40,681 nt of DNA. Source: Eggerthellales bacterium (lineage in GTDB: Bacteria > Actinomycetota > Coriobacteriia > Coriobacteriales > Eggerthellaceae). The translations under genes were made by a program, and so were the position numbers. Under the pieces are notes generated by a model that was not told the DNA's origin, did no database searches, and saw only the letters and a list, made by a program, of their open reading frames with translations. Below are positions 10,599 to 16,383 of this stretch, one piece after another (position 1 is the stretch's first letter; each line of letters begins with the position of its first letter). The stretch spans positions 1 through 40,681 of the forward strand of contig JAQXVU010000061.1 in the NCBI GenBank assembly GCA_029225085.1. The letters run 5' to 3'.

Positions 10599-12551
10599 TT
10601 ACTCTTTGCTGAGCTCCTTGCGCAGGTACAGACCAGCATCGGCAAAGCCGCGGTCGCGGTAGTATTGTCGGGTTCCGATAGCGCTGATGACGTTGATGCT
10701 GGTGTAGCCCGCCTCGGTTGCAATCTGGCAAGCGCGGGCGATGAGCTTCTTGCCAAGGCCAGCGTGCTGGGCGCTGGTGCCTTCCTTGCTGATGGCGGCC
10801 ACCTTGCCGTATACGTGCACCTCGCGGATCATGGCCTGACCAGGCGAAACGGGGAGACCTTCGTAGGCGCGGAACGCTTCGGTTTTCGGCAGGGAGAGTC
10901 GCAGGAAGCCAGCGATCTTTCCTTCGGGGGTGACCCACTGCAGGAAGACCTCGTTGGTGAGGGTGGTTTCATAGGGGAGCTCCTGCAGCTGCAGCTCGTC
11001 GATGCTCACCTGGTCCCCAGCGATTTCCCGGTGGCGAATCTCCTGCACGGTGGCATCGCGTTTGGCGGTGTCGGCGTCCACCATTTGGCGCAAGTTGGTC
11101 TTCTTGTTTCCGGCGATGATGTCCGGCGCGCTGAAATCCCTGATCATGCGCGAGATTCGGGTGTAGGCGGGAGTTGCCAGGACGCATTCGGTCAGCACTT
11201 CGCGCAGGGTCTCTTCGGAATAAGGCTGCCAAGCGCCCTGGTGGTACAGAGGCTCTAGAGCGGTTCCTTCCAAAAGGACGCAGGGGTACAGCTTAATCTC
11301 GTCGGGCAGAAAACGCTGGTCGGTGACGAAGAGCCGATAGTCCTGCACGTCCGCCTCAGGGGAGGACCCGTACAGGTTCGCCATGAAATGGGTGTGGCTC
11401 TTAAAGCCGAACAGGCGCAGCAGCTCGAAGGCTTGGGCGATCTGGGCTTCGCTGGTGTGGCGGTTGTTCGCGGCGAGGACCTCGGGGCGCGTACTCTGAA
11501 TGCCGATCTGCACCTTGGTGCATCCCAGACGTCGAATGGTGCGCAGGCTTTGTACGGTGACGTTGTCGGGTCGGGTCTCGATGACCATGCCCACACAGCG
11601 ATGAGCTGCGGTTTCGTTTATGCGCTGTTGTTCCTCGAGCTCGTCCCAGGTGGCGGTTTGCCAGCGGGCGGCCTTGCCGAGAGGGGAGTCGGGGCCGTAC
11701 AGGAGTCCGAAACCCTGGTTGTAGGTGAGCTCGCCGGCGTTCACGCGGGTTTGCAGCTCGCCAGATGCCTGGGCCAGCGCGTCGTCTTTCCAGGTGAAGT
11801 CCTGGGATTCGTAGAGTTCGCGCAGTCGCGCCTCTTCCGCTTCAGCTTTGTTATGGAAGGTGCCACTGGTGCTTTGGTTGACGACGTTAGCGCTTGTCGT
11901 GGCGGGTGCGGTGTCGTCAGCGTTTGGCGTGGAGGACCCGTTGGCGTCAGCGCCCGTTTCGGCGGGCATCGCCTCATTCCAAGAAACTCCCGCATCGTTC
12001 AGTGCGGTGAAGAGCCTGCTTGCGAACCAAATCTGGTAGGTCTCGGGGTAGTCGCTGAAGGTGCCGCCGAGGATGATGAGCTCTACTTTGTCGGTGACGT
12101 GCCCCATCTGGTTCAGGGTCCGCAGCCTGGCGGTGACCTGCAAATAGGGGTCGAAGTAGTTGCGCTCGGCACGCTGGCAGGCGGGCTCGTCGTGCATGTA
12201 GCTCTTGGGCATGCGCAGATCGTTGGGGCAGTACAGGCAGTTGCTGCTGCAGGGCCATGGCTTGGTGATGACGGTGATGGTGGCCACGCCGCTTGCGGTG
12301 CGACGGGGCTTCAGGCGCAGGGCGGTGACCAGCTGCGATTCTTCCTGAGGAGTGAGGCTCCAGCTTTCCCAGAGCTCGGGGTTGCTGCTCTTGGTGCGCA
12401 GAAAGAAGGGCATGAGCTGCTTCTTTGCGAATGCTCGGGTGCTGCTGGCTGCCTGCTTGTTGTGCTTGCGCAGGATGCCATCGATGGCTTTGCTGCTGAG
12501 GCTCCCGTTAGCTCGCAGGTGCTCGATGATTTCACGCATGATTTCTTCCAT
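10599..12551 (-). CDS. Elp3-type radical SAM/GNAT tRNA uridine-34 modifying enzyme
   Basis: A 650-residue Elp3 homologue. The radical SAM cluster is C101, C105 and C108 in KPWPCSSNCLYCPND, followed by the Elp3 features SYMHDEPACQRAERNYFDPY and IILGGTFSDYPETYQ. The C-terminal GNAT/KAT domain carries EVHVYGKVAA and the acetyl-CoA loop QHAGLGKKLI near residue 595. Elp3 uses acetyl-CoA and a 5'-deoxyadenosyl radical to build 5-carboxymethyluridine at tRNA wobble U34. Residues about 195-235 form a Ser/Thr/Ala/Asp-rich insertion, before a charged segment typical of bacterial and archaeal Elp3. The ATG lies 6 nt from a perfect TATAAT with no ribosome site, suggesting a leaderless message. It is divergent from a Trm9-like methyltransferase. 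Confidence 0.92.
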   Translation of the reverse strand: MEEIMREIIEHLRANGSLSSKAIDGILRKHNKQAASSTRAFAKKQLMPFFLRTKSSNPELWESWSLTPQEESQLVTALRLKPRRTASGVATITVITKPWPCSSNCLYCPNDLRMPKSYMHDEPACQRAERNYFDPYLQVTARLRTLNQMGHVTDKVELIILGGTFSDYPETYQIWFASRLFTALNDAGVSWNEAMPAETGADANGSSTPNADDTAPATTSANVVNQSTSGTFHNKAEAEEARLRELYESQDFTWKDDALAQASGELQTRVNAGELTYNQGFGLLYGPDSPLGKAARWQTATWDELEEQQRINETAAHRCVGMVIETRPDNVTVQSLRTIRRLGCTKVQIGIQSTRPEVLAANNRHTSEAQIAQAFELLRLFGFKSHTHFMANLYGSSPEADVQDYRLFVTDQRFLPDEIKLYPCVLLEGTALEPLYHQGAWQPYSEETLREVLTECVLATPAYTRISRMIRDFSAPDIIAGNKKTNLRQMVDADTAKRDATVQEIRHREIAGDQVSIDELQLQELPYETTLTNEVFLQWVTPEGKIAGFLRLSLPKTEAFRAYEGLPVSPGQAMIREVHVYGKVAAISKEGTSAQHAGLGKKLIARACQIATEAGYTSINVISAIGTRQYYRDRGFADAGLYLRKELSKE

Positions 12552-12557
12552 GCAGAC

Positions 12558-12563
12558 ATTATA
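12558..12563 (-). promoter_or_regulatory. -10 element of elp3, leaderless arrangement
   Basis: Read on the minus strand, TATAAT is followed by GTCTGC and then the ATG of the Elp3 gene. Transcription would start at or one base from the start codon, and there is no AGGAGG-like sequence. No convincing -35 is visible. Confidence 0.6.
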
Positions 12564-12592
12564 GGGGTTGGGGCGGGCATCGGCCTTGCGGC

Positions 12593-12645
12593 GGCTGTCC
12601 CGGGCGTCGGGTTTGCACTGGCTGTCCCGGGCGTCGGCTTTGTGC
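12593..12645. repeat. Two-copy 27-bp direct repeat between elp3 and the methyltransferase
   Basis: GGCTGTCCCGGGCGTCGG occurs at 12593 and 12620 within the 190-bp divergent region. It may separate or co-regulate the two promoters. Confidence 0.6.
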
Positions 12646-12728
12646 TAGCTGGGGTGGCTTTGGCCTCGAATGCTGATTCGTGTCTGGCTCGTGCTAGCTG
12701 CCCTAGCCTTACCCTAGCCTAGCTGGGG

Positions 12729-12734
12729 TAGAAT
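12729..12734 (+). promoter_or_regulatory. -10 element of the Trm9-like gene, leaderless arrangement
   Basis: TAGAAT ends seven bases before the ATG at 12742, which places the transcription start on the start codon. It sits in the loop of a small GGGG/CCCC hairpin. No Shine-Dalgarno sequence is visible, unlike nearly all other genes here. Confidence 0.5.
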
Positions 12735-12741
12735 ATCCCCC

Positions 12742-13731
12742 ATGAATATCGAGACCGCACATATGCTCTGCGCGCTTAACAACGACTTCTACCAGCGCAA
12801 CGCCGCGTCCTTCGCCCGGACCCGCAACAATTCCTGGCGTGGATGGGAACTGTGCCTTGAGTCTGTGCTGTTTGCGCCGACCCGCGTGCTCGATGTAGCC
12901 TGCGGGACCATGCGTTTTCGCGAGTGGCTGAGCAATCGCCCTGGTCAGGGGTCGTTTGAGTACTATGGCATCGATTCTTGTCCTGCGCTGTTGCCAGAAG
13001 ATGTGAAAGGCGCCGCCGGTTCTGAGGATGGTGGCGCTGGCGCCGAAACTGTCAGTTCCGTTCACTTCCAGCAACTGGACGTGTTGGGGGCTTTGCTTGC
13101 AAGCGAATCTTGCGGCGCCGAAGGTGTTTCTGGCGCGGGTGCACTTAAGGGTCTCATCCAGGCACCCCTCTGCGACCTGGTGGTTTCCTTTGGGTTCATG
13201 CATCACATTCCCGGTGCTGCTTGCAGGCGGGAGTTCTTGCGCCTGCTCCTGAAGAAGACGCAGCCAGGCGGTTACGTTGCTCTTTCTTTCTGGCAATTCA
13301 TGAACAGCGAACAGCTTGCTGAGCGAGCGCGGCAGACTACGGAAGAGGGGTTGCGGCGTCTTTCGGCTGGGGAGCTTGTTCGAGGCCTTGATTGGGACCT
13401 TGATCGGAACTTTGGTCAGAATTCGGACTCGGATCTGGACAAAGACTCAGACTCAGGCCCAGGCCCAGACTCAGGCCCAGGCCCAGACTCGGACTCAGAC
13501 TCAGACTCAGACTCAGACTCAGACCTAGACCTAGATTCCAACGATTATCTGCTGGGCTGGGACGGCAAGACCGACACCCTACGTTATTGCCATCACTTCG
13601 CGCCTGAGGAGATAGATGAGCTGGCGGAATCCGTGCGGGATCTTGCAACGGTGCAGGCTCGTTTCTCTTGCGATGGGCGTACCGGCAACCTGAACGGCTA
13701 CTTGGTGCTGCAGAGGCGTGCAGCGCATTGA
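12742..13731 (+). CDS. Trm9/ABH8-like SAM methyltransferase, candidate tRNA cm5U34 methyltransferase
   Basis: A 329-residue class I methyltransferase. It begins with FYQRNAASFARTRNNSWRGW (16-35), the F..TR...W element that opens Trm9 proteins. Motif I is VLDVACG (49-55), and motif IV is DLVVSFGFMHHIP (145-157) with the HH of the Trm9 group. QPGGYVALSFWQF follows at 174-186. After a variable Asp/Ser linker (about 229-266), the C-terminal block LRYCHHFAPEEIDEL (280-294) parallels the RYYHLY...EL block that ends Trm9. Trm9 methylates cm5U34 of tRNA to mcm5U34, downstream of Elp3, which is encoded divergently here. The linker is coded by a GACTCA hexanucleotide array, and yeast Trm9 is also variable at this point. 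A generic Methyltransf_11 enzyme with another substrate is the alternative. No Trm112-like partner is in the window. Confidence 0.75.
   Translation: MNIETAHMLCALNNDFYQRNAASFARTRNNSWRGWELCLESVLFAPTRVLDVACGTMRFREWLSNRPGQGSFEYYGIDSCPALLPEDVKGAAGSEDGGAGAETVSSVHFQQLDVLGALLASESCGAEGVSGAGALKGLIQAPLCDLVVSFGFMHHIPGAACRREFLRLLLKKTQPGGYVALSFWQFMNSEQLAERARQTTEEGLRRLSAGELVRGLDWDLDRNFGQNSDSDLDKDSDSGPGPDSGPGPDSDSDSDSDSDSDLDLDSNDYLLGWDGKTDTLRYCHHFAPEEIDELAESVRDLATVQARFSCDGRTGNLNGYLVLQRRAAH
13444..13537 (+). repeat. GACTCA/GGCCCA hexanucleotide array inside the methyltransferase gene
   Basis: Tandem six-base units code for alternating Asp-Ser and Gly-Pro dipeptides, ending in GACCTA units (Asp-Leu). Copy changes keep the frame, so the effect is on linker length, not on expression. 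Confidence 0.9.
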
Positions 13732-15506: not shown

Positions 15507-15540
15507 TGCGGCTGCGCAGTGCGTGGCCGCATTTGTTTTT
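15507..15540 (+). terminator. Terminator after degV
   Basis: The stem TGCGGC/GCCGCA (15507-15512 and 15526-15531) has a structured loop and is followed by TTTGTTTTT. It ends 12 bp before the tcdA start. Confidence 0.7.
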
Positions 15541-15552
15541 AAGGATTCGCCT

Positions 15553-16383
15553 ATGGAAATGAGTCGACCAACTGAGCCCGCAGATCGGCAACCCGTCGAG
15601 CCCGCAGCCCAGCAACCCGCCGAACCCACGGCCCAGCAGCTCGTTGAGCCCACGGCCCAGCAACCCGCTGAGACTAACCAGTTCGCTCGCACCGAGCTCC
15701 TGCTGGGAGCCGATGCTGTCGCGCGCCTGAAGAACGCACGCGTTGCCGTGTTCGGCGTGGGCGGCGTGGGAGGCTACGTGGTAGAGGCCCTGGCTCGCAC
15801 TGGCGTGGGCGCGCTCGATGTCATCGACAACGACACGGTTTCCCTGACGAACCTTAACCGCCAGATCATCGCCACGTACGAGACGCTGGGCAAAAGCAAG
15901 GTGCAGGTGGCGGCTGAGCGCATCGCTTCAATAAATCCCGCTTGCAAGGTGACTGCTCACGAGTGCTTTTACCTGCCAGAGACGCGGGAGCGGTTCGTAT
16001 TTTCCGACTACGATTACGTGGTGGACGCGGTAGACACGGTGGCCGCGAAGCTCAGTCTCGTCGAGGCGTGTCGCGACGCTGGCGTACCCTGCATCAGTAG
16101 CATGGGTGCGGGCAACAAGCTCGACCCGACGGCGTTTCAGGTGGCGGACATCTACGAGACCTCCGTGTGCCCGCTGGCCAAGGTTATGCGACGCGAGTGC
16201 AAGAAGCGCGGCATCGACCATCTGAAGGTGGTTTACTCCCAGGAGCCTCCCCTGAAGCCTGCTCATGTGGAAGGGGGAGAGGTGAAAGCCACCGGCCGGG
16301 GTGTTCCCGGGTCCGTAGCCTTTGTTCCTTCCGTGGTGGGCCTCATCATCGCTTCGGAAGTGGTGAAGGATCTGATTAAGTAA
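15553..16383 (+). CDS. tcdA: tRNA threonylcarbamoyladenosine dehydratase (ThiF/E1-like)
   Basis: A 276-residue E1-like enzyme that uses ATP to cyclise t6A37 of tRNA to ct6A. The nucleotide-binding glycine loop is VFGVGGVGGYV at 67-77, followed by DVIDNDTVSLTNLNRQI (89-105), the Asp/Arg/Gln signature of ThiF-type adenylation domains. CISSMGAGNKLDPT and YSQEPP are typical of the TcdA/CsdL branch. The first 42 residues are a proline/glutamine arm with AQQPAEPT-type repeats, absent from the usual family N terminus, which begins at the FARTELLLGADAV segment. I chose the ATG at 15553 because AAGGA lies nine bases upstream; a downstream start would need a non-ATG codon. Confidence 0.9.
   Translation: MEMSRPTEPADRQPVEPAAQQPAEPTAQQLVEPTAQQPAETNQFARTELLLGADAVARLKNARVAVFGVGGVGGYVVEALARTGVGALDVIDNDTVSLTNLNRQIIATYETLGKSKVQVAAERIASINPACKVTAHECFYLPETRERFVFSDYDYVVDAVDTVAAKLSLVEACRDAGVPCISSMGAGNKLDPTAFQVADIYETSVCPLAKVMRRECKKRGIDHLKVVYSQEPPLKPAHVEGGEVKATGRGVPGSVAFVPSVVGLIIASEVVKDLIK

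Follow-up and report, generated by a model that had tools for sequence, protein, structure and literature searches.

In the 40,681-nucleotide stretch of Eggerthellales DNA analysed here (contig JAQXVU010000061.1, positions 1 to 40,681; hereafter the window), two divergent genes encode Elp3 and a class I S-adenosylmethionine (SAM) methyltransferase with features of Trm9. Together, the two genes would constitute a two-step bacterial pathway of wobble-uridine (U34) modification, in which Elp3 acts first and is followed by a Trm112-independent Trm9-like enzyme. The probability of this reading is estimated at about 0.75. The source bacterium, whose genome assembly of 1.93 Mb in 91 contigs is rated 100% complete, probably decorates its tRNA anticodons with 5-methoxycarbonylmethyluridine (mcm5U) chemistry. 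A first-pass annotation had already proposed that the head-to-head pair forms such a two-step pathway. Both open reading frames are real, and the proposal is supported by the clade of the methyltransferase and by its linkage to Elp3; the substrate, the product, the order of the steps, and the independence of the activity from Trm112 are inferred. The elements of the locus are as follows.

Positions 10599-12551, minus strand: Elp3, 650 residues with radical SAM and GNAT domains, by family a tRNA U34 carboxymethylation enzyme (TIGR01211; PDB matches to DmcElp3 and MinElp3).
Positions 12552-12741, no strand: divergent intergenic region, with 190 bp between the two start codons according to the reading-frame positions.
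Positions 12742-13731, plus strand: Trm9-like class I SAM methyltransferase, 329 residues, assigned by tree, profile comparison, and co-occurrence with Elp3.

The association of the two genes was assessed in 296 genomes of the phylum (Actinomycetota), in 119 genomes of the family, and in named loci retrieved by searching with only the methyltransferase. The methyltransferase is present in 23 of the 296 phylum genomes and so is Elp3, and the two sets of 23 are identical (Fisher test, 9e-35, uncorrected for relatedness). Among the 119 family genomes, 97 have both genes, 17 have neither, four have the methyltransferase only, and one has Elp3 only; the four with the methyltransferase only are all incomplete assemblies (56-86%). 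Species with both genes and species with neither are found within the same genus in three genera of the family sample (g12, g28, and g44) and in one of the phylum sample (g53), a pattern indicating that Elp3 and the methyltransferase have repeatedly been lost together. In 74 of the 80 named loci, Elp3 lies on the opposite strand upstream of the methyltransferase, mostly at less than 250 bp. Elp3 is also the only conserved neighbour in the 47 loci that span 12 kb or more (46/47); DegV, ThiF, and SNF occur in none of them and ThrH in 5. The link to Elp3 in related genomes, on which the first-pass annotation had staked its proposal, is therefore borne out by the genomes as well as by the loci.

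The association extends beyond the Coriobacteriia. Three other actinobacterial families (f26, f35, and f64), represented among the 23 genomes, have a shorter methyltransferase, matched by the profile of the coriobacterial family (A1, built from the alignment of 27 methyltransferase relatives) at E-values of ~1e-15 to 1e-21, and the accompanying Elp3 is archaeal-like (~600 bits). In all four of these genomes whose contigs could reveal it (G187, G151, G175, and G377), the two genes are divergent neighbours on one contig; in G335 and G367 they are on separate contigs, with at least one of the two genes at a contig edge. The methyltransferase of G175 (L144) has the Yarrowia Trm9 (5cm2) as its best PDB match (1.9e-18, residues 26-225), and the non-coriobacterial actinobacterial methyltransferases carry the Trm9 elements D.[FV][IV]PW and RY.H. 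Judged by sequence, these proteins bridge the coriobacterial methyltransferases to Trm9.

It is very unlikely that the methyltransferase acts on a protein or a small molecule and is tied to Elp3 only by co-regulation from one divergent promoter that both genes share. Such a role would agree with the generic fold and with Pfam, where Methyltransf_23/11, itself generic, is the sole domain found. A shared promoter, however, leaves unexplained the co-loss of the two genes, their linkage in other actinobacterial families in which Elp3 is quite different, and the conservation of Trm9 residues. A scan of positions 12400-12900 found no sigma-70 consensus promoter between the two genes, and a 27-bp tandem repeat occupies positions 12574-12651 of the intergenic region.

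The kinship of the methyltransferase emerges from profiles rather than from the single sequence, which gave only chance matches in the PDB with phmmer and NCBIfam matches that fell on an Asp/Ser linker (adhesin SD repeats). With the A1 profile, Trm9 5cm2 ranked first in the PDB, weakly (5e-5). In hhalign comparisons, the coriobacterial family scored 125 against Trm9 plus a haloarchaeal protein (columns 7-264) and 177 against the other actinobacterial proteins, while the best generic methyltransferase scored 84, over the Rossmann core only, and CmoM 44. These profile scores agree with the tree described next.

A tree was constructed in which the coriobacterial, other actinobacterial, and haloarchaeal Trm9-like proteins and yeast Trm9 were set against 23 other class I methyltransferases, a modest outgroup sample that includes UbiE/MenG, CmoM, BioC, and methyltransferases of the same genomes and from which ABH8 is absent. 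The Trm9-side proteins are separated from the 23 generic enzymes with a support of 97/94, and the same split is obtained with nine outgroups (97/92). The methyltransferase thus groups with yeast Trm9 and the haloarchaeal Trm9-like protein in a tree without ABH8, and a position outside the Trm9 clade, which had been named beforehand as an argument against the pathway, was not observed. The haloarchaeal protein (L151, Natronorubrum) bears the same signature and, of all proteins in the plasmid collection, matches yeast Trm9 best. The plasmid methyltransferases of Haloarcula and Halorussus were also considered as archaeal Trm9 and rejected; they lack TR, HH, and RY.H and group with the generic enzymes.

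The three elements that had been likened to Trm9 (F..TR...W, HH, and RYCHHF..EEIDEL) are all found, at residues 24-32 (FARTRNNSW), 154-155, and 281-294, respectively. They are conserved across a wider set of 108 distinct relatives and are not due to chance. Twelve residues are invariant in 108/108 relatives: R28, W32, H154, H155, R162, W184, D268, R281, H284, D311, N318, and Y320. In yeast Trm9, the substitutions R29A, H115A, R241A, Y243A, and N271A strongly affect tRNA affinity and activity (review, PMC5372719). Four of these five tested residues (R29, H115, R241, and N271) are matched by invariant residues of the methyltransferase, as listed below, and further Trm9 invariants recur at unchanged intervals (HH+7=R, D+5=W, R+3=H, and R+9=E).

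Positions 12823-12825, plus strand: R28, aligned with yeast Trm9 R29; invariant in 108/108.
Positions 13201-13206, plus strand: H154-H155, corresponding to yeast Trm9 H115-H116; invariant in 108/108.
Positions 13582-13593, plus strand: R281-Y-C-H284, corresponding to yeast Trm9 R241-Y-Y243-H; R and H do not vary, and the third residue is C in 103 relatives and A in 5.
Positions 13693-13695, plus strand: N318, corresponding to yeast Trm9 N271; invariant in 108/108.
Positions 13443-13535, plus strand: AGACTC-type tandem repeat, in frame, encoding a D/S/G/P-rich linker outside the conserved enzyme; predicted local distance difference test (pLDDT) ~50.

The linker had also been counted among the Trm9-like features, and this must be withdrawn. 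It is the product of the local hexanucleotide tandem repeat listed last above and is absent from the relatives in A1, and its resemblance to the Trm9 linker is coincidental.

The same evidence bears on the alternative of a CmoM- or TrmR-like methyltransferase acting on uridine 5-oxyacetic acid (cmo5U) or 5-hydroxyuridine (ho5U), with the adjacency of Elp3 being incidental. CmoM is likewise a class I enzyme and likewise esterifies a carboxyl group at U34 (E. coli annotation). It falls outside the clade, however, lacks TR, HH, and RY.H, and scores 44 in hhalign, where Trm9 together with the haloarchaeal protein reaches 125; CmoB is over the cut-off in none of the 23 pair-bearing genomes, and the co-occurrence with Elp3 in the phylum sample is exact. 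On the grounds of tree, signature residues, hhalign, and CmoB absence, the identity as CmoM is rejected, and a role of this kind is regarded as extremely improbable.

The identification of the partner gene as Elp3, also made at first pass, stands: the protein scores 414.6 bits against TIGR01211, above the curated cut-off of 350, and its catalytic residues are kept. Its closest solved structures in the PDB are the Elp3 proteins of Dehalococcoides mccartyi and Methanocaldococcus infernus. In the latter, replacement of E207, K302, or Y304 by Ala abolishes the formation of 5-carboxymethyluridine (cm5U) or nearly so (PMC13315578). The relevant segments are given below.

Positions 12228-12251, minus strand: iron-sulfur (FeS) cysteines C101-x3-C105-x2-C108; conserved without exception in coriobacterial (70/70) and other (7/7) Elp3.
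Positions 11286-11579, minus strand: E325, K420, and Y422, equivalent by position mapping to MinElp3 E207, K302, and Y304; likewise without exception in both sets of Elp3 (70/70 and 7/7).
Positions 11643-11993, minus strand: lineage-specific insertion, ~residues 187-303, with no alignment to solved Elp3.

The insertion is 26-122 residues long in the Coriobacteriia, compared with 6 residues in other actinobacterial Elp3, and is situated between the FeS loop and the remainder of the radical SAM domain. The CxCxxC zinc motif is present in 7/7 other Elp3 but in 0/70 coriobacterial Elp3, so that it has been lost in the coriobacterial form. This motif does not define the whole Elp3 family, because eukaryotic Elp3 is also without it.

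Other U34 genes were sought in the same genomes. Trm112 (PF03966) has no match in the source genome and hence none in the window; in the other 22 genomes with the pair, the matches listed include weak ones only (E >= 8e-5), none of which is convincing. The earlier remark that the window contains no Trm112 homologue therefore applies to the entire genome, and the suggestion that the enzyme may work alone is supported by both results. MnmG is over the cut-off in 0/119 family genomes, and at E <= 1e-60 it is found in 0/23 pair-bearing genomes vs 53/296 across the phylum sample. MnmA, on the other hand, is found in 23/23 pair-bearing genomes, and a 2-thio derivative is therefore plausible. Several family genomes (G003, G007, G011, G027, G031, G040, G113, and others) have neither Elp3 nor the methyltransferase nor MnmG.

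Several observations weigh against the pathway as proposed. Known Trm9 requires Trm112, yet no convincing Trm112 was found in the 23 pair-bearing genomes. The position of Trm9 Y243, the Ala mutant of which is inactive in yeast, is occupied by C283 here and by Cys (103) or Ala (5) among the 108 relatives. Foldseek and VIA-align recognize no more than the generic class I fold, and the leading matches are METTL6 (at Z 18.5, level with others) and generic methyltransferases; Trm9 5cm2 is not among the fold-comparison matches listed, which is uninformative either way. The coriobacterial branch of the tree is long (2.2 substitutions per site), and the identity of the yeast Trm9 sequence used rests on its agreement with the five published residues and on its match to PDB 5cm2 (Yarrowia Trm9) at 6e-71. 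In the family sample, G098 (96% complete) carries Elp3 and gave no match to the methyltransferase. Finally, the chemistry, both nucleoside and enzyme activity, is something that we infer.

Considering the Y243 change and the distance from Trm9, the specificity of the methyltransferase could have shifted. Elp3 would then make cm5U34, and the methyltransferase would form another derivative or modify another atom (e.g. by methylating the 2'-O of cm5U or by a reaction leading to an amide), and the end product would be something other than mcm5U. The unique insertion and the missing zinc motif of the coriobacterial Elp3 may also be taken in this sense. In contrast, all 108 relatives keep R28, HH154-155, R281, H284, and N318, and the Trm9 counterparts of these residues have been proposed to orient cm5U34 (PMC5372719). 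Moreover, the Y243 position is Tyr, Cys, Phe, or Val in the less diverged actinobacterial homologues, and the change at this position therefore marks no switch of function. A different end product is thus considered unlikely. The best reading of the sequence data is that the methyltransferase works like Trm9. It is nevertheless not filed as Trm9, because dependence on Trm112 and the Tyr at position 243 were both tested and neither was found.

In the proposed pathway, Elp3 would draw on SAM and acetyl-CoA to carboxymethylate U34 of selected tRNAs at C5, yielding cm5U34, and the Trm9-like methyltransferase would esterify the carboxyl group with SAM, without Trm112, to yield mcm5U34. MnmA, encoded elsewhere in the genome, would probably add a 2-thio group on Lys, Glu, and Gln tRNAs to give 5-methoxycarbonylmethyl-2-thiouridine (mcm5s2U34). 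Most bacteria employ MnmE/MnmG to make 5-methylaminomethyluridine (mnm5U), and some employ CmoA/B/M to make cmo5U; the Elp3 pathway would occupy the place of one or the other. That it represents a complete, two-gene, Trm112-independent mcm5U34 pathway replacing MnmE/MnmG, both in Coriobacteriia (human gut and oral genera among them) and in further actinobacterial families, is the wider reading towards which the evidence leans.

Elp3 in bacteria was already known (PMC6367351, PMC13315578); what would be new here is the Elp3-Trm9 pathway in a bacterial form that does without Trm112. A 2017 review stated that no such methyltransferases had been found in bacteria (PMC5372719), and in a 2020 review the listing of cm5U and mcm5U was confined to eukaryotes and archaea (PMC7694415). 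A literature search, whose coverage excluded most subscription journals, returned no paper joining Elp3 with Coriobacteria and none reporting a bacterial Trm9. The tightly linked Trm9-like partner leads to a specific prediction, mcm5U or mcm5s2U, for the product of bacterial Elp3 in the cell, which covers gut and oral species that can be cultured, among them Collinsella aerofaciens and Lancefieldella rimae. Should the enzyme indeed be active alone, Trm9/ALKBH8 catalysis would gain a simple model that dispenses with the Trm112 activator.

Named species of the human mouth and gut carry the pair, namely Atopobium/Lancefieldella (L045, L050, L055, and L071) and C. aerofaciens (L106), which makes tRNA analysis practical. 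In six Collinsella loci (L094, L101, L102, L106, L107, and L109), the divergent genes are separated by ~2 kb, leaving room for an extra gene. Near the pair in the window, a ThiF-family protein (PF00899) is encoded at 15523-16383 on the plus strand and is not a conserved neighbour in relatives; we take it to resemble TcdA/CsdL, the dehydratase of cyclic N6-threonylcarbamoyladenosine (ct6A37) and thus a tRNA modification gene. Tandem arrays are abundant in the window (36 rows in the repeat listing), suggesting that repeat expansion is common in the source genome.

Among known systems, the Elp3 proteins of D. mccartyi and M. infernus share with the coriobacterial form the radical SAM and GNAT domains, the FeS cysteines, and the Glu, Lys, and Tyr of the acetate tunnel and active site; the coriobacterial form differs in lacking CxCxxC and in having the insertion of 26-122 residues. 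The methyltransferase resembles Trm9 (yeast Trm9-Trm112, Yarrowia 5CM2, and the haloarchaeal protein) in four of the five mutationally tested residues, the invariant spacing, the clade, and the Elp3 partner. It differs in being bacterial, in belonging to a genome without Trm112, in the change of Y243 to Cys or Ala, and in its very diverged sequence. With the methyltransferase domain of ALKBH8/ABH8 it would share the reaction, presumed to be that of Trm9 (PMC5372719), but according to Pfam it consists of the methyltransferase domain alone, without an AlkB or RRM domain. CmoM is similar as a class I enzyme of carboxyl methylation at U34, but it is outside the clade and without the signature residues, and its pathway gene CmoB is absent from the 23 genomes. 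MnmE/MnmG, the main bacterial C5-U34 pathway, would be the physiological counterpart of the pair, with MnmG absent from the 23 pair-bearing and the 119 family genomes.

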